Of a DNA stretch of 64,000 nucleotides, positions 1 through 9,417 are shown piece by piece. Under the pieces are notes generated by a model. It was given only the letters and a program-made list of their open reading frames with translations. It did no database searches and was not told the DNA's origin. The translations under genes and the position numbers were made by a program. This DNA comes from Dyadobacter fermentans DSM 18053. GTDB lineage: Bacteria; Bacteroidota; Bacteroidia; Cytophagales; Spirosomataceae. Where the stretch lies: positions 496,001-560,000 of the forward strand of contig NC_013037.1 in assembly GCF_000023125.1 (NCBI RefSeq), given 5' to 3'. Position 1 is the first letter of the stretch; each line of letters opens with the position of its first letter.

Positions 1-715
1 CGCCGTGCGCCTTCACAATCGCCACCTTCTTGTCTTCATCCAAAAAGTAACGGAGCATTCCTTCGGCATCGGCCTCCGGATGAAATTGGGTACCTACGAT
101 TTCGTTCGAGAAGCGGACGGCCATGACAGCGCGTTCCAGCGGCACATGCGGACGGATTTTTTCGAGACAAAGCAGCTTCGCGCCCATCGCATCAAACGCA
201 AACCGGTTGGGCTGCGTGACCTGGAAATCGCGCGAATCCACGATCCAGAAAGGGTCGGCCAATGCATTCAGCAGCGGATCTTTGCGGCCGGCTGAGGTTT
301 TGTGCACCGGAAAAGTGCCGAACGAAGTCTTCCGCCGCTTGCTCACCGCCGCCAGCTCCCAGTGAATGCAGGCCATTTGAAACGAGTGGCAAATCAGGAA
401 CAAATGCTTTTTGATACGGTTTTGCCGCTTCGCATTGTAAGCTAATATCTTATCCAGAAATCCGAAAAAGCGCTTTTCCCATGCCTCGCCAACCGGTGCC
501 GGATTGCCGGGTCCGCCGGTAGAAATGTAGGCGTCGAAGTCCATTCCCGGTATTTCCAGCTTTTGTCTTACATCAAAAACAGTGAATTCAACGGGCACGT
601 TTTCATGCTCTCCGAATGCGGAAATGATCTTTTTGATGCATCGCATTCCCTCGTTGGGGTGGCCGTTGTACATGTCCAGGATCGCGATCCGGAAATGTTT
701 TTCATGAGTAGTCAT
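1..715 (-). CDS. class I glutamine amidotransferase-like protein (C-terminus beyond window)
   Basis: Starts at ATG 715 and stays open to base 1, so the C-terminus is missing. The 238 visible residues read as a class I glutamine amidotransferase (GMP-synthase-like) fold, with a GGPG loop at residues 67-70, a candidate nucleophile Cys109 in LICHSFQ, and the HPE pair His212/Glu214. This family releases ammonia from glutamine for a partner synthetase. The nucleophile elbow reads C-H-S instead of the usual C-x-G, so hydrolysis may be altered. It is the last visible gene of a co-directional run with a carboxylate-amine ligase (125 bp upstream), an ATP-grasp ligase and an esterase, which suggests it serves those ligases. 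The fold is fairly sure; the substrate is unknown. Confidence 0.8.
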   Translation of the reverse strand, partial: MTTHEKHFRIAILDMYNGHPNEGMRCIKKIISAFGEHENVPVEFTVFDVRQKLEIPGMDFDAYISTGGPGNPAPVGEAWEKRFFGFLDKILAYNAKRQNRIKKHLFLICHSFQMACIHWELAAVSKRRKTSFGTFPVHKTSAGRKDPLLNALADPFWIVDSRDFQVTQPNRFAFDAMGAKLLCLEKIRPHVPLERAVMAVRFSNEIVGTQFHPEADAEGMLRYFLDEDKKVAIVKAHG

Positions 716-840
716 TACAATTTGTGGCCGGTCGGTGTCAATGAAATCAGCCTTTAAGTTAGAGAATCGGGTAACCTATTTTTAACAAAACTCTTCCTGA
801 TAAGTTCGGGTTTTGGGCTAAAAGTTTGATTTAATTCTAA

Positions 841-1938
841 CTACAACCCGATTTTAGTCTCCGAAACGATATAATCTACCACTGCATTCAAACAGCCGGT
901 TTGCTCGAAAACGGCTAGCTGGCGGTCGGCGCCGGTGCCCATTTCGAGGATCTGGTGGATGTATCCGATCTCCTTCCGGCTGCCCAGCTCGTCCACCACG
1001 TCATCGATAAACGCGAGCAGTTCGTGTATCAGAATGCGATATTCCACTTCCTCCTGCTTACCGAAGTCGATCAGCTTGCTGTGGATGCCGTACCGCGCCG
1101 CGCGCCACTTGTTTTCGTTGATGAGCATGCGGCGGTAAGGGCGGAAACTGAGGTTCTGGCTGTGAAGTTTGTGGATTTTGGCCACGAGTGCCTGCATGAT
1201 CGCGGCGAGGCAGATCGTCTCGTCCGTGCGCATCGGCACGTCGCACATGCGGAATTCGATGGTGTTGAAAAACGGGTGCAGGCGGATATCCCACCAGATT
1301 TTCTTGCCATTATCAATGCATTTCGTCTTGATGAGCAGTTCCACATACTCGTCATATTCCGCCGCACTGGAAAAGTAATCGGGAATGCCGGTCCTGGGAA
1401 ATTTATCGAAAACTTTCGAACGGTATGATTTGAAGCCCGTATTGCGCCCGCACCAGAACGGCGAGTTGGTCGATAGCGCGTAAATGTGCGGCAGAAAATA
1501 CCGCACGGCGTTCATGATCTGGATTCCCTCGTTCCGGTTTTCGATGCCCACGTGCACGTGCAGCCCGAAAATGAGGTTTCCGCGGGCCACGTCGCGCATT
1601 TCGTCGATGATCTGATCGTACCGCGGGTCGTCGGTAATGAGCTGGTCCACCCAGTCGGCGAAGGGGTGCGTGCCGGCGGCGGCCACTTGCAGGTCCTGCT
1701 TTTCGGCCAGGTCCAGGATCATTTGGCGCAGGTAGGTTACTTCCTCCCGCGCCTCCTGGATGTTGTGGCAGATATTCGTCCCCACTTCCACCACCGCCTG
1801 GTGCATTTCCGCCTTCACGCGCTCCTTTAACGTTATTTGCCCGTCTTCCACCAGCTTTGACATATGCGACCGCAGGTTTCTCGTAACGGGGTCGATCGTC
1901 TGAAATTCCTCTTCAATTCCCAGGGTGAATAATGCCAT
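841..1938 (-). CDS. carboxylate-amine ligase, GCS2 / YbdK family
   Basis: 365 residues, the usual length for YbdK-type ligases. The protein opens with the family signature LGIEEEFQ (residues 6-13) and holds a mid-protein HVHVG motif, both typical of the glutamate-cysteine ligase family 2 fold. Family members join a carboxylate to an amine using ATP, via an acyl-phosphate. The gene ends 125 bp before the amidotransferase and begins 28 bp after the ATP-grasp gene on the same strand. Two ligases of different folds side by side point to stepwise assembly of a short peptide or amide rather than glutathione, since no glutathione synthetase with that signature is nearby. The substrate cannot be read from sequence. 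Confidence 0.88.
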   Translation of the reverse strand: MALFTLGIEEEFQTIDPVTRNLRSHMSKLVEDGQITLKERVKAEMHQAVVEVGTNICHNIQEAREEVTYLRQMILDLAEKQDLQVAAAGTHPFADWVDQLITDDPRYDQIIDEMRDVARGNLIFGLHVHVGIENRNEGIQIMNAVRYFLPHIYALSTNSPFWCGRNTGFKSYRSKVFDKFPRTGIPDYFSSAAEYDEYVELLIKTKCIDNGKKIWWDIRLHPFFNTIEFRMCDVPMRTDETICLAAIMQALVAKIHKLHSQNLSFRPYRRMLINENKWRAARYGIHSKLIDFGKQEEVEYRILIHELLAFIDDVVDELGSRKEIGYIHQILEMGTGADRQLAVFEQTGCLNAVVDYIVSETKIGL

Positions 1939-1966
1939 AATGTGAAAACGGCTGAATGACAGTGGA

Positions 1967-3325
1967 TCAGGATTTCTTCAATTTCGAATTTTTGGCAGGT
2001 GCTTTCGTCGCTGCGGCCCTGGTGGTGGGCACCTTCGGTTCGGCCGGCTCTGCCACAGCAATTGGCTCGGTTACAATCGCTCCGAGCGACTTGGCCGGTT
2101 TTTTAGGTGGAACGGCCTTTACTTTCACTTCAGTGGCTGATGGTGTCGTTTCGGGTGCTTTTGCGCGTTTCTCAGTTGTTGCCTGGGGCGCTTTTGCAGG
2201 TTCCGTGGGTGTTGCTTTGGGCGCCTTTGGGGGCTTCACCGGTGGTGCTTCGGGTGTTTTGGCAGGTTTCGCCAAAGTTGCTTTTGGTGCTTTCGAGGGT
2301 GCCGCTTTGGCTTTTGTCGGTTCCGCTGGCTTGGCAGGAGCCGGTGCGCTGGCTGCCGCGGGCGATGCCGGAACGCCATTGACCGCCTGGTTCACGAATG
2401 TGCCCCAGGTGAGGTTAATTTGTCCGGGGATATGCGTTTTTGCGCGTTCAATGGCCATATTGGCCGCGGCTTCAACTACCCATTCAAAATTATCGCGGCC
2501 TACGGAGTAAATGTCGGCGTCCGGCGCGGGGTTGCAGAAGTCTATCGCGTACGGAATGCCGTCGCGCACGGCAAATTCGACGGTGTTGAAGTCGTAGCCC
2601 AGCGCTATGTTCAGTTTTAAGGTATAATCCTTAATTGTTTCAAGGAGTTTTTCACGCTCTTCGCCCTGGGCTTTCAAATCGGCCGCATAGCGCAAATGGT
2701 GCGGGTTACGCGGCTCGTAAGGCATTACCAGCACGTCTTTTTGGCCAATGCAGTAGCAGCGCACGTAGTCGTCGAACACGATTTCTTCCTGCAACATCAT
2801 CACCAGCTGCCCGGTTTCTTCATGTTTGATCCACATATCCTGCGGGTTCACCACCCTGTAAACGCTCTTCCAGCCGCCGCCGTCGTGCGGTTTCATGTAG
2901 GCAGGGAAGCCCACGTATTGAAATATTTCCTCCCAGGCCATCGGGAAGGCCAGGTTGCGGAACGAGGTTTCGCTGGTGTTGGTCGGGCGTTGTTTAGAAG
3001 GCAGCAGGGCGGTTTTGGGTACGGGTATGCCCAGCTTTTCTGCCAATGCATTATTGAAAAACTTCTCGTCGGCGCTCCACCAGAACGGGTTGTTGATCAC
3101 CGCTGTGCCCGCCAATGCGGCATTTTTCAGATAGGAGCGGTAAAACGGTACGTCCTGTGAAATGCGGTCGATGATCACCGCGTATTCGTTGGCCTCGGCC
3201 TGTATCACTTTATCGATGGTGACGGCCTCTGCCACAATGCCGTCCACACCTTTGCTGTTGATTCTTTCGATAAATGCATTCGGAAAAGTATTTTCCATTC
3301 CGAACAGGATTCCAATCTTTTTCAT
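1967..3325 (-). CDS. ATP-grasp ligase with Ala/Pro/Lys-rich C-terminal tail
   Basis: 452 residues. Residues 1 to about 325 look like an ATP-grasp ligase: an N-terminal substrate domain (GILFGMENTFP), a Lys-containing nucleotide-binding strand (AYMKPHDGGGWKSV), and a metal-binding acidic end (NTVEFAVRDG, then DFCNPAPD). ATP-grasp enzymes form C-N bonds through acyl-phosphates. The last ~120 residues are a low-complexity run of short K-A-P/K-P-A-like units, strongly basic and probably disordered, resembling histone-H1-like tails. The tail might bind nucleic acid, a polyanion or the partner ligase (inference). It lies between the esterase (24 bp upstream) and the GCS2 ligase (28 bp downstream) in one apparent operon. 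Confidence 0.85.
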   Translation of the reverse strand: MKKIGILFGMENTFPNAFIERINSKGVDGIVAEAVTIDKVIQAEANEYAVIIDRISQDVPFYRSYLKNAALAGTAVINNPFWWSADEKFFNNALAEKLGIPVPKTALLPSKQRPTNTSETSFRNLAFPMAWEEIFQYVGFPAYMKPHDGGGWKSVYRVVNPQDMWIKHEETGQLVMMLQEEIVFDDYVRCYCIGQKDVLVMPYEPRNPHHLRYAADLKAQGEEREKLLETIKDYTLKLNIALGYDFNTVEFAVRDGIPYAIDFCNPAPDADIYSVGRDNFEWVVEAAANMAIERAKTHIPGQINLTWGTFVNQAVNGVPASPAAASAPAPAKPAEPTKAKAAPSKAPKATLAKPAKTPEAPPVKPPKAPKATPTEPAKAPQATTEKRAKAPETTPSATEVKVKAVPPKKPAKSLGAIVTEPIAVAEPAEPKVPTTRAAATKAPAKNSKLKKS

Positions 3326-3349
3326 ATAGGTTTTGAGTTGTGTTCTGGA

Positions 3350-4105
3350 TTATTGTAAAACCATGCGGGAGAGGTAGTCTGGAAACATTTTGTTCCAAAG
3401 CGGCCAATCGTGTTTTTCCCACCCACGAATATCGAGCCAGTGCTCGATGCCATTGTTGTTGAGAATGCCCGACATCCTGAGGTTGCTGTTCAGGCAGATG
3501 TCCCAGTCGGAAGTTCCCAGCACGATTTTCATGTGCCCGAAGCGCCAGCCTTGTTCGTTGGGCATGAAATCGACGGGGTTGTTGAAATACACCGCATCGT
3601 CGTAAAACCCGTCGAGAAAGCCGCGGATGTCGAATGCGCCGCTCATGCTCACCAGGTAGGCGACCATTTCGGGATGGCGGAATGCGAAATTAGCAGCATG
3701 AAAGCCCCCGAAGCTGCATCCGGCTACGCCGATTTTGCCCACATTGCATTCATGCTTGATATGAGGTACGAGCTCGTTTTTGAGGAACTTGTCGTATTGG
3801 ATGTGATTGAGGACGCGGTATTCGGGGTTGAGGTGCTTGCCGTACCAGGAGTCGGCATCGATCGTGTCCACACAATAGATCTTGTATTTGCCCGATTCCA
3901 CCAGCCACCGCACCGATTCGATCAGCCCCATGTCCTTGGCCTGGTAGTAGCGGCCGAGCGTGGTGGGGAAAAGCAGGATAGGGTAGCCCCAGTTGCCGAA
4001 GACAAGCATCTCCACTTCTTTGTCGAGATGATGAGAGTAGTATTTAATGTGCTGCTCTTCCAAACAAAGACGGTTTATAGTTGATAATTGAAATATACAA
4101 AACAA
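3350..4105 (-). CDS. putative esterase, alpha/beta hydrolase (esterase D-like)
   Basis: 251 residues, no signal peptide seen. The nucleophile elbow GCSFGG places the catalytic Ser at residue 131; an Asp in the SDWD segment and a His in the C-terminal EKHDWPLW segment complete a plausible triad. Homologous proteins are annotated as esterase family (esterase D / YbbA-like). It is the first gene of the amidoligase operon. The ATG at 4105 adds about 15 residues before the likely domain start (EEQHIKYYS); an in-frame TTG at 4063 is the alternative. It may hydrolyse or transfer an acyl or peptide product of the cluster, which is inference from position only. Confidence 0.8.
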   Translation of the reverse strand: MFCIFQLSTINRLCLEEQHIKYYSHHLDKEVEMLVFGNWGYPILLFPTTLGRYYQAKDMGLIESVRWLVESGKYKIYCVDTIDADSWYGKHLNPEYRVLNHIQYDKFLKNELVPHIKHECNVGKIGVAGCSFGGFHAANFAFRHPEMVAYLVSMSGAFDIRGFLDGFYDDAVYFNNPVDFMPNEQGWRFGHMKIVLGTSDWDICLNSNLRMSGILNNNGIEHWLDIRGWEKHDWPLWNKMFPDYLSRMVLQ

Positions 4106-4196
4106 ATCATAGGAAGCAAATTATTAACTTTCGGGTTTTATGTCTGTCCGTAGCCGTGTCTTTTGCCGTGAACAATCCGCTTCTTCCTTAAAAATA

Positions 4197-4985
4197 ATGC
4201 CTGTAAATACCACCATATCATCCGCTTTGCTAGGCAGGGAAGTGCACGTAAGCATTGTACTTCCAGCCGGTTTTAACAAAGACCAGACTTACCCGCTGGT
4301 GCTTTTCAATGACGGACAGGATTTCAAAACTTTGCAAATGGCCAACACCGCCGAGGCTTTACAGGCGGAGGGGCGGATGGCCCCGTGCGTGATCGCAGGC
4401 ATCCATGCGAGCGACGCGCGCATACACGAGTACGGGACCGCCGGCCAGTCCGATTACGCCGGGCGCGGGAGTCGGGCGCGGCTTACCACCGCATTTGTAT
4501 TGCAGGAATTGGTGCCGTTTCTGGCAGAACATTACCAGACCGTGAGGAGTGGAATCACCTATGCCGGCTGCTCGCTCGGCGGGTTAATGGCGCTCGATGC
4601 CGTTTGGAACCATCCCGAAACGTTCGCGCAGGCCGGTGTTTTTTCGGGGTCGCTGTGGTGGCGGCAGAAGGCGCTGGATGAAGGTTATTCCGAAACGGAC
4701 CGCATTATGCACCGGCAAATACGCGATGCCGGCCATCGGGGAAGGCTGAGCTTCTGGTTTCAATGCGGCACGTGGGACGAGTACGACGACCGTGACGGCG
4801 ACGGCGTGATCGATTCCATTCAGGATACGCTCGAATGCATTGCCGAGCTGGAACGGAAAGGCTATGCCTGGGGCCGGGATATCCGGTACGTGGAAGTGAG
4901 GGAAGGGCTGCATAACCCCGAAACGTGGGCCAAAGTCCTTCCCGACTTCCTGGAATGGGCGTCGGGAAGGGGCCGGAAGGCTTAG
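4197..4985 (+). CDS. putative esterase, alpha/beta hydrolase
   Basis: 262 residues from ATG 4197, where the conserved region begins; an in-frame ATG at 4140 would add 19 residues without recognisable signal. The elbow GCSLGG gives nucleophile Ser126, and a His lies in EGLHNPETW near the C-terminus. It belongs to the putative esterase family that includes enterochelin-esterase-like proteins. It is divergent from the amidoligase operon and is a second hydrolase flanking the same cluster, so both probably act on related substrates (inference). Its stop overlaps by 4 bp the stop of the convergent acyl-CoA reductase gene. Confidence 0.82.
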   Translation: MPVNTTISSALLGREVHVSIVLPAGFNKDQTYPLVLFNDGQDFKTLQMANTAEALQAEGRMAPCVIAGIHASDARIHEYGTAGQSDYAGRGSRARLTTAFVLQELVPFLAEHYQTVRSGITYAGCSLGGLMALDAVWNHPETFAQAGVFSGSLWWRQKALDEGYSETDRIMHRQIRDAGHRGRLSFWFQCGTWDEYDDRDGDGVIDSIQDTLECIAELERKGYAWGRDIRYVEVREGLHNPETWAKVLPDFLEWASGRGRKA

Positions 4986-6007
4986 GCCATGTTGGCGAGG
5001 AAGGCCATGGTGTCGATGCCGTCGGCGTAATCCGCCAGGCCGGGCGTCTGTGCACCGCCGAATGGCAGCGCGTCCTGCAAATGCAATGAAGGCTGCGCAA
5101 CCACGCATTGGATCTTTTCCTCCGACTCCCGCAGCAGCGCTTTGAGCTCCTCGGCAGACTCGTAATGCTGGTAATGCAGCACGCTGATCGGCGACACGAG
5201 CGCCTCGCTTTCAGTGGCGAGCAAAAAGCCGTTGTCCGAATGCGCGATGCGGTTTACGAGGTAAATCGACTTGTTGTATTCGTAATTATTAAAAAACTTA
5301 TGGTGGTGCAGGTAATCCGGCGCCATTTCTTCGATCGCCTGGTAAAACCCGGTAAAGTCATATCCCGCCGGCACAAACACCTTCGACACATTGCGGCAGC
5401 CGAGGCCAAAATATTGCAGGATGTCATTGCCCAGTGCGCGCAGTTCCGCGGGTGTCTCCGAGCCGCTGAGTGCAGCTACGGATGTCCGGTTTTTACGGAT
5501 AATGTTCGGCTTTTTGGCAAAATAATAATGAAAATACCGGGCAGTATTGTCGCTTCCGGTGGCAATGTACGCGTCGGAATCGTTCAGGCGCTCTACGAAA
5601 TGGATGTATTCTTTGAACTCCGGTTCGATCTCGATCAGCTGTGCGAGCAATGCGCGGATCAGCAGCGGGTCGTCGGAACTGGGTTTGGCGAGTAACGTGT
5701 GGCCGCTGATGAGTACGCACAGCGCGTCGTGAAAGCCCACGGCGGGGATGTTTCCGGCCATTACCACGCCAATTTTTCGCGATTGGGCGGGTTCGGGGTA
5801 GCTTTCTGCCCAGGTCCGGAGTTTTTCGGCGTCGAGATATTCCCCGGCGATTGCATTCAGCGACAATCGCACATTAGCGGGCGTAAACCAGTTGTTACGG
5901 CTTCGGGCTGCCGCCACCCATTCCTCGATCGTTTCCTCATTTGCCGCGTCGCCGATGAACTGGCCCAGACGGATGAACGCATTTATTCTCCGAATTCTTG
6001 ATATCAT
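4982..6007 (-). CDS. acyl-CoA reductase, LuxC-related
   Basis: 341 residues resembling the acyl-CoA reductase (LuxC-like) aldehyde-dehydrogenase-fold proteins of Bacteroidota. Visible features are a VMAGNIPAVGFHD segment (83-95), a glycine-rich ATGSDNTARYF cofactor-side motif (149-159), and a probable catalytic Cys204 in GLGCRNVSK. Such enzymes reduce acyl thioesters to aldehydes with NAD(P)H. The start at 6007 is the only good ATG. It is divergently arranged with the ferredoxin gene, 129 bp between starts, an arrangement I recall from other Bacteroidota; shared redox work is possible but unproven. The substrate is unknown. Confidence 0.82.
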   Translation of the reverse strand: MISRIRRINAFIRLGQFIGDAANEETIEEWVAAARSRNNWFTPANVRLSLNAIAGEYLDAEKLRTWAESYPEPAQSRKIGVVMAGNIPAVGFHDALCVLISGHTLLAKPSSDDPLLIRALLAQLIEIEPEFKEYIHFVERLNDSDAYIATGSDNTARYFHYYFAKKPNIIRKNRTSVAALSGSETPAELRALGNDILQYFGLGCRNVSKVFVPAGYDFTGFYQAIEEMAPDYLHHHKFFNNYEYNKSIYLVNRIAHSDNGFLLATESEALVSPISVLHYQHYESAEELKALLRESEEKIQCVVAQPSLHLQDALPFGGAQTPGLADYADGIDTMAFLANMA

Positions 6008-6058
6008 TCTACTCTGACTCTAAAAAGTTAAATGGCAAGTGCCGTTTTTATTTTTCTG

Positions 6059-6089
6059 ATTGTTGGGAAACTATAAATAGTTATATTTG
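6059..6089 (+). promoter_or_regulatory. Bacteroidota-type promoter for ferredoxin gene
   Basis: ATTG at 6059-6062 (one mismatch from TTTG) is followed after 19 bp by a perfect TAnnTTTG box, TATATTTG, at 6082-6089. This is the spacing of the primary sigma factor consensus in this phylum. The start codon lies 47 bp downstream. Confidence 0.6.
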
Positions 6090-6136
6090 TTACCCTAAAC
6101 AGAAGAATAGCAACAAATATAAACAATCCGGCGACT

Positions 6137-6484
6137 ATGGCTATAATGATAACCGACGAATGCATAAATTGTGGGGCGTGTGAGCCAGAATGCCCGAATA
6201 CTGCAATTTATGAGGGAGGTGTAGAATGGACTTGGGGAGATGGAACGAGTTTAGATGAGGTGGACTTCGGCGATGGCACCATCGTAAGCGGCAAGGAAAA
6301 GCAGTCCCCTGTTTCAGACGAATTTTACTATATAGTTACAGATAAATGTACCGAGTGCGTTGGTTTTCATGAAGAGCCGCAATGCGCGGCCGTTTGTCCG
6401 GTCGACTGCTGTGTGCCCGATCCCGACAACGAGGAAGAAGAAGAAACGCTGCTTGCCAAAAAAGCATGGATGCACGGTGAATAG
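6137..6484 (+). CDS. 4Fe-4S dicluster ferredoxin
   Basis: 115 residues. Cluster I ligands are Cys9, Cys12, Cys15 and Cys19 (CxxCxxCxxxC). The second site has the extended spacing CxxC-x8-CxxxC followed by CPVDCC, typical of Alvin-type bacterial ferredoxins. Between them is an acidic insert, and the tail is rich in Glu. It should carry low-potential electrons in the cytoplasm. The partner is not shown by the sequence, although the divergent acyl-CoA reductase is the obvious neighbour. Start ATG 6137 immediately precedes the first cluster. Confidence 0.92.
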
Positions 6485-6830: not shown

Positions 6831-8030
6831 ATGAAAAAAGTCTATTGCACAGTATTATCTTTGATGGTTCCTTTTTTGGGTTTTGCGAAGGCAGAAGAAG
6901 ATAAAAAGGCGGTGAAGGCCGATACTGCGGTGGTTACAGAGGCCAAGGACGATGAGGAGGTAAAAGGAGCATTCGCTTTCTCGGGCTATCTGGATTCCTA
7001 TTACATGGCTAATTTCAACAAACCGGCATCCCGCTCCAACATGGGTGCTTCCAATGCACGGGTGTTCGACCAGAAATCGGGCCAGTTTTCGCTCGGCCTT
7101 GTGCAGACGAGAGTAGCTTACACCAATGCAAAATCAGAAGCGGTGGTGGATCTTGCATTCGGACCGAACGCCAACATGGGTAACTACGGCAACGCGCTGT
7201 TCAGCACCGCGCTGGCGATCAAGCAAGCATACTTTACATACAAGTTTACCGACAAGTTCTCGATGACAGCAGGGCAATTCGGTACGCATATCGGGTACGA
7301 AGTGATCGACGCACCGGCCAACTTCAACTACTCGCTTTCCAACCTGTTCAACAACGGGCCATTCTACCACGCCGGTTTGAAAGCGACCTACGCATTCTCC
7401 GACAGGGCTTCATTGATGGTGGGTGTGGTAAACAATGTGGATGGCCTCGGCGACAACAACCGTGCAAAAGGGGTGATCAGCCAGCTGTATTTCAAGCCGG
7501 TTGAAAACTGGAACGTGTATGTAAACTACATCGGAAGCAACGAGGCCAACACCGATTCGCTCGGCAAGCAGCCCGACGGTTTCTACCAGGTGTTCGACCT
7601 AACCACGAGCTTCCAGGTGAGCGAAAAATTCCTTTTGGGTCTGAATGCCGCTTACGGATCTCAAAAAGGCGATTTCCAGGGTGCAGGTGGTCCTCTTAAA
7701 ACTGAAACATGGGGTGGCGTTGCGGTGTATGCCAACACGGCCATCACGGAAAACTTCGGAATCGGTGCCCGTTACGAATACTTTAACAACGACAGCGGCG
7801 TAAGAGGCCTGCTCACCGCAGCGAAAACAGGAACCAAAGTAAACTCGGTAACGCTTACCGGCAACATTAACCTGGCCGACGGACACATTCTCGTGAAACC
7901 TGAGTTCCGCCTGGATGCCTATCCCAAGCTGAGCGGATCGGGCGAAGCGCAGCAGTTCGAGGATTCGGAGGGCGGCTGGACCAAGAACAGCCAGACTACA
8001 TTCGGATTAGCATTCATTTATAAATTCTAA
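6831..8030 (+). CDS. outer-membrane porin (OmpL-like beta-barrel), ammonium-linked
   Basis: 399 residues with a Sec signal peptide (MKKVYCTVLSLMVPFLGFAKA) and an acidic linker, then alternating amphipathic strands ending in the aromatic FGLAFIYKF expected of a beta-barrel. It fits the putative beta-barrel porin-2 (OmpL-like) group. It lies 67 bp upstream of amtB on the same strand and probably shares its transcript, so passage of small nitrogenous solutes across the outer membrane is a reasonable inference. The start is fixed by the signal peptide. Confidence 0.82.
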   Translation: MKKVYCTVLSLMVPFLGFAKAEEDKKAVKADTAVVTEAKDDEEVKGAFAFSGYLDSYYMANFNKPASRSNMGASNARVFDQKSGQFSLGLVQTRVAYTNAKSEAVVDLAFGPNANMGNYGNALFSTALAIKQAYFTYKFTDKFSMTAGQFGTHIGYEVIDAPANFNYSLSNLFNNGPFYHAGLKATYAFSDRASLMVGVVNNVDGLGDNNRAKGVISQLYFKPVENWNVYVNYIGSNEANTDSLGKQPDGFYQVFDLTTSFQVSEKFLLGLNAAYGSQKGDFQGAGGPLKTETWGGVAVYANTAITENFGIGARYEYFNNDSGVRGLLTAAKTGTKVNSVTLTGNINLADGHILVKPEFRLDAYPKLSGSGEAQQFEDSEGGWTKNSQTTFGLAFIYKF

Positions 8031-8097
8031 AACACGACACATCGCATTTCACACGAATACCTTCTTAATCTAATTACAATAACAATAATTTACTACA

Positions 8098-9417
8098 ATG
8101 GAAAAACGTAACTTTATCCCACTGATTATTCTCCTGGTAATCAGCATCCTCGGTGCCTTCATCCCAAATGTCCCGACGCAGATCGCGACGGAGGGCATCA
8201 ATTCCGGCGACACTGCTTGGATGCTCGTTTCAGCCGCGCTGGTATTGCTCATGACCCCGGGTCTGGCGTACTTCTACGGAGGAATGGTTAGCACCAAAAA
8301 TGTCATCTCCACGATGCTCCAGAGCTTCATCGCGATGGGTGTAATCAGTGTGATATGGGTGGTTTTCGGTTTCAGCCTTGCATTTGGTGACGACATTGGC
8401 GGTTTCGTCGGTGACCCTACCACGCACTTCATGTTCAAAGGTGTGTTGGACGGTCCGGTTTGGGGAACCATTCCTTTCGCATTGTTTGCAATGTTCCAGT
8501 TGAAGTTCGCGGTAATCACTCCCGCGCTCGTAACCGGTTCAATGGCTGAGCGTATCAATTTCCGCTCTTACGTTCTTTTCATCATTCTTTTCTGTGTGTT
8601 CATCTACTCGCCGCTGGCTCACATGACTTGGCATGCGGATGGCTTGCTTTTCAAAATGGGTGTGCTTGACTTTGCCGGCGGTACCGTGGTGCATATGTCT
8701 GCGGGCTGGGCTGCTTTGGCCGGTGCGCTTTACCTGAAACGCCGCAAGTCGCTCCTCGATGATCACGTGCTTCCTCCTGCAAACATTCCTTTCGTATTGC
8801 TCGGAACCGGTTTGCTGTGGTTCGGATGGTTCGGTTTCAACGCCGGTTCTGCACTTACCGCTTCTCCATTGGCCGTTTCAGCATTCGCAACTACCAACAC
8901 TGCTGCCGGTGCGGCTGGTTTGGCCTGGGTTTTGTTTGATGCTGCAAAAGGCAAGAAAGTTTCGGCACTCGGCTTCTGTATCGGTGCTGTGGTAGGTTTG
9001 GTAGCGATTACACCTGCTGCCGGTTTTGTAACAGTTCCGGCATCGTTGTTTATCGGTACCGTTGCTGCGATCATCTCCAACTACATTGCTCACCTTCGCA
9101 CCCGCTCCACTTTGGATGATACACTCGACGTATTCCCTTGCCATGGTGTAGGTGGTATGGTAGGTATGCTAATGACCGGTATTTTCGCAACGAGCGGTGT
9201 TAACTCACTGGTAACGGATCAGGGTCTTGCATTTGGCGAAACCAAGCTGTTCATTAACCACGTGATTGCATTGGTAGGCGTGTCGGCATTCGCATTCGCA
9301 GGTTCATTCCTGCTGCTGAAACTGACGGATCTGATCCTTCCGCTTCGTGTATCGGAGCAAGATGAGAAGGCTGGTCTGGATGTTAGCCAGCACGACGAGT
9401 TCCTTGTAGAGGCTTAA
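8098..9417 (+). CDS. amtB: ammonium transporter AmtB
   Basis: 439 residues with about eleven hydrophobic segments, a normal length for Amt. Family hallmarks are FYGGMVSTKN after the first helices, the twin pore histidines (one in the HMSAGWAALAG segment, one in FPCHGVGGMVG), and the GFNAGSA loop. It conducts ammonium/ammonia across the inner membrane. No PII gene (glnK) follows, unlike the usual glnK-amtB pairing. A porin precedes it, and two glutamine synthetase genes lie within 8 kb, so the region handles uptake and assimilation of ammonium. Confidence 0.95.
   Translation: MEKRNFIPLIILLVISILGAFIPNVPTQIATEGINSGDTAWMLVSAALVLLMTPGLAYFYGGMVSTKNVISTMLQSFIAMGVISVIWVVFGFSLAFGDDIGGFVGDPTTHFMFKGVLDGPVWGTIPFALFAMFQLKFAVITPALVTGSMAERINFRSYVLFIILFCVFIYSPLAHMTWHADGLLFKMGVLDFAGGTVVHMSAGWAALAGALYLKRRKSLLDDHVLPPANIPFVLLGTGLLWFGWFGFNAGSALTASPLAVSAFATTNTAAGAAGLAWVLFDAAKGKKVSALGFCIGAVVGLVAITPAAGFVTVPASLFIGTVAAIISNYIAHLRTRSTLDDTLDVFPCHGVGGMVGMLMTGIFATSGVNSLVTDQGLAFGETKLFINHVIALVGVSAFAFAGSFLLLKLTDLILPLRVSEQDEKAGLDVSQHDEFLVEA

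Follow-up and report, generated by a model that had tools for sequence, protein, structure and literature searches.

Amide ligases of three kinds at a conserved Dyadobacter fermentans locus and their proposed small-molecule product

What is made by a compact group of amide-bond-forming genes in Dyadobacter fermentans DSM 18053, and do these genes act in one pathway? The group lies at the left edge of a 64,000-nucleotide stretch of the genome (hereafter the window; contig NC_013037.1, positions 496,001 to 560,000), which sits in a single-contig assembly of 6,967,790 bases. An earlier note on this DNA, made from the letters alone, described a five-gene cluster of two carboxylate-amine ligases of unrelated folds, an amidotransferase and two flanking esterases, and suggested a new small metabolite. 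We find that the conserved unit is EST1-AG1-GCS2-GAT-AG2, a set of five genes with three ligases (AG1, GCS2 and AG2), and that these ligases occur together in genomes even where their genes lie apart. We consider it an even bet that three different kinds of amide ligase cooperate here in the non-ribosomal assembly of one small molecule; the best reading of the product class is a small glutamyl peptide or a peptide-amine conjugate.

Gene cluster and joint inheritance

The cluster and its surroundings comprise the following features; genes left of window base 1 are given in the coordinates of locus L002.

2..715, minus strand: GAT, class-I glutamine-amidotransferase-like, truncated by the window edge (whole gene 280 amino acids, L002:11873-12715); PF00117, 28.5 bits
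841..1938, minus strand: GCS2, YbdK-type carboxylate-amine ligase, 365 amino acids; PF04107, 209.6 bits
1967..3325, minus strand: AG1, RimK/LysX-fold ATP-grasp ligase, 452 amino acids; domain at about residues 1-310, then an Ala/Pro/Lys-rich tail (about 1967-2395)
3350..4105, minus strand: EST1, small alpha/beta hydrolase of the conserved core; PF00756, 33.6 bits
4140..4985, plus strand: EST2, divergently oriented esterase, peripheral; PF00756, 104.5 bits
L002:10687-11880, minus strand: AG2, second ATP-grasp, 397 amino acids, glutathione-synthetase/YgiC fold
L002:9474-10709, minus strand: class-III aminotransferase
L002:8590-9507, minus strand: aldose-epimerase-like gene
L002:8001-8597, minus strand: Crp-like gene

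The five frames of the earlier note thus exist with the domains that it named, and the cluster is real, but its limits had been misplaced: only four of the five genes are co-directional, and the operon runs on to the left of base 1. Extension in that direction, which the note had proposed as a check, revealed AG2, the aminotransferase, the epimerase-like gene and the Crp-like gene, so that both of the ligases first described are present but belong to a unit with three. Read along the minus strand, the order is EST1, AG1, GCS2, GAT, AG2, aminotransferase III, epimerase-like and Crp-like; the first three gaps measure 24, 28 and 125 nt, and the following junctions, with mechanically assigned start codons, overlap by 8 (GAT/AG2), 23, 34 and 8 nt. 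Both hydrolases were likewise found, although EST2 lies on the opposite strand and outside the conserved core: in 49 of 71 loci an EST2-like gene, on either strand, lies no more than 4.5 kb upstream of AG1.

A contig scan with AG1 yielded at least 592 confirmed relatives, of which the best 80 loci, a sample biased to close relatives, were analysed; they include Dyadobacter (the nearest named relatives), Runella, Larkinella, Emticicia, Hymenobacter, Chryseobacterium, Elizabethkingia, Polaribacter and Belliella. After 15 loci with short flanks were left out, 65 remained, and in these AG1 is accompanied on the same strand by EST1 (63 loci), GCS2 (63), GAT (62) and AG2 (60), with all four partners flanking it in 60. 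A further 40 loci were chosen for distance or breadth, 7 of them being left out for short flanks; in none of the 33 usable distant loci do all four partners lie near AG1, which there has a partial set or stands alone. Conservation of the neighbourhood, on which the earlier proposal had been made to depend, holds among close relatives and is weaker among distant ones. Additional genes also vary between lineages. A third ATP-grasp (32/80 loci) and an M17 aminopeptidase (30/80) occur mostly in Chryseobacterium-like and marine flavobacterial loci, and aminotransferase III (18/80) in Dyadobacter and near relatives. Among the distant loci, an M29-type peptidase adjoins GCS2 in five (PF02073 tested on two), and another ATP-grasp follows AG1 in ten, nine of which also have GAT; the one such ATP-grasp tested narrowly missed the CP_ATPgrasp_2 cut-off (31.6 bits, with 32 required).

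Co-inheritance was counted over one set of 395 sampled Bacteroidota genomes. GCS2 matches were found in 129 genomes; 12 of these, with scores under 300 bits, were set aside as a separate clade (G291, a genome with AG1, among them), the operon type being defined by 350 bits or more; two of 88 GAT matches, at less than 30 bits, were also dropped. On this basis AG1 is present in 134 genomes, AG2 in 114, operon-type GCS2 in 117 and GAT in 86. Four pairs occur in more genomes than expected: AG1 and AG2 in 110 genomes (38.7 expected), AG1 and GCS2 in 113 (39.7), AG2 and GCS2 in 109 (33.8), and AG1 and GAT in 84 (29.2). All three ligases are retained, adjacent or apart, by 105 of the 395 genomes, about one quarter of those sampled, and 64 of the 105 also carry GAT.

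This joint presence extends to genomes in which the genes are dispersed. AG1 and AG2 lie more than 8 kb apart or on separate contigs in 49 of the 110 genomes that have both (16 families), where some separations are presumably contig breaks and those in G286, G290 and G428 amount to only 11-23 kb; in four single-contig genomes (G071, G081, G097 and G306) the distance is about 0.55 to 3.2 Mb. AG1 is absent from four genomes that carry AG2. The examined case, G191, retains AG2, GAT and GCS2; no AG1 was found in the 1,800 bases beside its GCS2, where EST1 is represented by no more than a short stretch of weak likeness (E 0.002). Its genus (g28) is patchy, with all four genes in G179 and G255, three in G191 and none in G059, G063, G095, G106 and G121. 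Clustering of the neighbours of separated genes (AG2 in L183-L192, GCS2 in L193-L200, plus L201 and L202) gave no common extra partner except one pair in L185-L187, three distant genomes in which a ferredoxin and an amidohydrolase-like protein, as read from sequence, lie beside AG2.

The enzymes

GCS2, the sole PF04107 match found in its own genome, passes both carboxylate-amine ligase models (NF010039, 559.7 against 371 bits; TIGR02050, 306.4 against 176.4) and falls under the cut-off of the eight other listed models, mostly named glutamate--cysteine ligase (e.g., 360.7 against 409 and 63.1 against 249.05 bits). It is a sequence homologue of YbdK (1r8g, 1tt4; 160-165 bits), in comparison with which the operon enzyme passes only the NF010039 and TIGR02050 models. 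By these cut-offs GCS2 is classed as a YbdK-type carboxylate-amine ligase outside the glutathione-function clade, and membership in a clade of known glutathione function, named earlier as a possible refutation, was accordingly not found by this test.

AG1 matches no Pfam family at E 0.001 and gives weak, sub-cut-off matches to the NCBIfam models for RimK (TIGR00768, 28.9 against 143.4 bits) and LysX (TIGR02144, 25.6 against 275.6). Its modelled fold is closest to the RimK/LysX ATP-grasp enzymes, and it differs from RimK and LysX/ArgX in sharing only about 16% identity and in lying below their model cut-offs. It is present in 24 of 24 genomes of the same genus, and Dyadobacter and Flavobacteriales (e.g., Polaribacter and Chryseobacterium) share 70-74% AG1 identity. 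Beyond residue 310 (window 1967-2395; loci L060-L179) follows a histone-H1-like tail, basic and rich in Ala, Pro and Lys. This tail varies greatly in length: it reaches 20 residues or more in 43 of the 83 frames measured, those with a recognisable end motif, and consists at least half of K, A and P in 35 of the 43; Chryseobacterium (L074) and Elizabethkingia (L118) lack it. Spread of AG1 by plasmids was rejected, a search of 72,556 plasmid records for AG1 giving zero tblastn matches at E 1e-5. One same-genus genome (L030/L031, G013:C2:7080783-7081713) has AG1 split into two adjoining pieces, as by frameshift or sequencing error, and a distant relative (L159:9631-10599, 37% identity) appears to be without the residues usual in ATP-grasp enzymes and could be a pseudoenzyme.

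No Pfam family scores over its cut-off for AG2 (GSP_synth, PF03738, 13.1 against 29.3 bits). Its fold over the whole chain, as modelled, is that of the group comprising YgiC/YjfC, glutathionylspermidine synthetase and eukaryotic glutathione synthetase. Likeness in sequence is low: AG2 has 13% identity with E. coli YgiC/YjfC over 343 aligned residues, with a sequence match only at E 0.024, and 8-14% identity with the glutathionylspermidine, trypanothione and eukaryotic glutathione synthetases, from which it also differs in its length of 397 residues without an amidase domain and in its low GSP_synth score. YgiC and YjfC are called peptidylpolyamine synthetases in PMC12568646, which cites Pederick et al. 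(2023) under a title describing them as peptide-spermidine ligases; in contrast to this naming, PMC12506659 describes YgiC as having no glutathionylspermidine synthase activity.

The canonical nucleophile elbow of class-I glutamine amidotransferases is G-x-C-x-G. In GAT, which exceeds its Pfam cut-off (22.8 bits), the elbow reads x-I-C-H/Y-S in 16 aligned sequences and departs from that pattern, as noted earlier, but all 16 aligned relatives have Cys109, His212 and Glu214 unchanged; by alignment, GAT is a class-I amidotransferase-like protein with an intact candidate Cys-His-Glu triad. The GAT profile (L002:11873-12715) weakly matches homoserine O-succinyltransferase (2vdj, 23 bits) and GMP synthases. 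For EST1, the candidate residues Ser131, Asp202 and His232 (L061 numbering) recur in 73, 72 and 73, respectively, of the 73 frames aligned; its annotated TTG start is uncertain, relatives starting about 17 residues further on. Comparison with sequences in the PDB gave no close relative of AG1, AG2 or GAT. Database names for the genes of the cluster, among the best 120 matches in each of two listings, are mostly 'ATP-grasp domain-containing protein', 'glutathione synthase' or 'hypothetical protein'.

Proposed pathway and its rivals

In both GCS2 and ATP-grasp enzymes, ATP activates a carboxylate, which is then joined to an amine. The joint inheritance of three ligases points to three coupling steps, or to two for which alternatives exist. 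To judge from its family, GCS2 would form the initial amide bond, the likeliest substrate being an acidic amino acid, for instance glutamate through its gamma-carboxyl; AG1, by its RimK/LysX-like fold, could add a further amino acid or glutamyl unit; and AG2, again by fold, might attach an amine or another amino acid to the peptide as a cap. GAT and EST1, acting as hydrolase or transferase, would trim an intermediate, release it or recycle it, and in some lineages the M29 peptidase may take the position of GAT. An amine-capped peptide is the most specific reading because of the AG2 fold and the peptide-spermidine ligase activity reported for YgiC/YjfC (PMC12568646).

Several observations weigh against such a pathway. 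Since 41 of the 105 three-ligase genomes have no GAT, that gene is not indispensable. Of the 134 genomes with AG1, 24 lack AG2, 21 lack operon-type GCS2, and seven, whose AG1 relatives show 34-45% identity, lack AG2, GCS2 and GAT together; none of the four partners lies near AG1 in 14 of the 33 usable distant loci. The Fisher p-values for co-inheritance ignore shared descent. As for the role given to AG1, RimK leads D-Ala-D-Ala ligase by only some 2 Z units in structural comparison, and Foldseek places D-Ala-D-Ala ligases first.

The genes could instead serve amine or amino-acid utilisation. In the putrescine (Puu) route, an amine is glutamylated, an aminotransferase step follows and the gamma-glutamyl group is removed; here the ligases would glutamylate the amine, the class-III aminotransferase would convert it and GAT would strip off the gamma-glutamyl group. 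The overlap of aminotransferase III with the end of AG2 fits this scheme, as does the occurrence of hydrolases among class-I GAT relatives, but the three ligases are spread far more widely than the aminotransferase of the 18 loci, and for such a route a single ligase would suffice; we regard it as rather unlikely. Protein modification, in which a RimK-like AG1 would add residues to a protein with the other enzymes producing the tag or taking it off, is hardly a probable explanation either: no conserved gene for a target protein was seen among the neighbour clusters, the AG1 tail is absent from the two whole-operon loci named above, and AG2 and GCS2 resemble small-molecule ligases.

Production of glutathione or another general low-molecular-weight thiol, with GCS2 making gamma-glutamylcysteine and AG1 or AG2 finishing the molecule, appears quite improbable. 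GCS2 does belong to the glutamate-cysteine-ligase superfamily, AG2 has the eukaryotic glutathione-synthetase fold in its model, many AG1 relatives are named 'glutathione synthase', and the genome has, at another site, one GSH-S_ATP match over cut-off (63.3 bits). That last match is not specific, since the family matches 9 of 14 control genomes, B. subtilis included, and GCS2 stays under the cut-off of every listed glutamate--cysteine ligase model. BshC, a marker of bacillithiol, scores 402.7 bits in D. fermentans itself and occurs in 360 of 370 sampled genomes, so that a general thiol is probably supplied already; BshC, being near universal, is nevertheless unusable as an exclusion test. A passage of PMC6282198 lists gshA-B outside Bacteroidetes only. 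Glutathione is thus disfavoured as the product. The BshC family has two adjoining matches in the D. fermentans genome (G000:C1:4336085-4338415; L180, L181), at 402.7 and 103.6 bits. The remaining explanation, that the genes are accidental neighbours with no common pathway, has next to no probability: AG1 often stands without partners nearby in distant relatives (those 14 loci), but chance clustering is rejected by the gene order kept in 60 of 65 close loci and by the joint presence of separated genes.

We therefore return to a non-ribosomal pathway with three kinds of amide ligase, and like the earlier note we infer a new small metabolite as its product. Retention of the three ligases, together with the 70-74% identity of AG1, points to a compound whose role in Bacteroidota is a steady one. 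That this is a widespread and hitherto unrecognised metabolite besides bacillithiol—a (gamma-)glutamyl tripeptide or peptide-polyamine conjugate from three ligase kinds, with an enzyme logic like that of glutathionylspermidine or trypanothione synthesis—is offered tentatively, as a possibility that we would sooner doubt than accept. Iyer et al., in 2009 (doi 10.1039/b917682a), reportedly predicted amidoligase neighbourhoods in which ATP-grasp and glutamine-synthetase-like ligases, with peptidases and hydrolases, make non-ribosomal peptides. Peptide-ligase neighbourhoods are a kind already known, and priority for this exact gene set is unsettled; among the matches listed from open-licence literature, no title or abstract opening describes the set, which is not equal to its absence from print. 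In the fungal E-64 pathway, the ligase Cp1B is partnered by an adenylating amide bond synthetase, no GCS2 being mentioned there in the available part of PMC12568646.

Adjoining genes

A LuxC-like acyl-CoA reductase and a YfhL-type ferredoxin adjoin the cluster (window 4982-6484). The ferredoxin (6137-6484) is similar to that found beside AG2 in L185-L187 and is not counted in the system. Further on (6831-9417) lie an OmpL-like beta-barrel porin (BBP2) and then a gene read from sequence as ammonium-transporter-like, both unrelated to the cluster.

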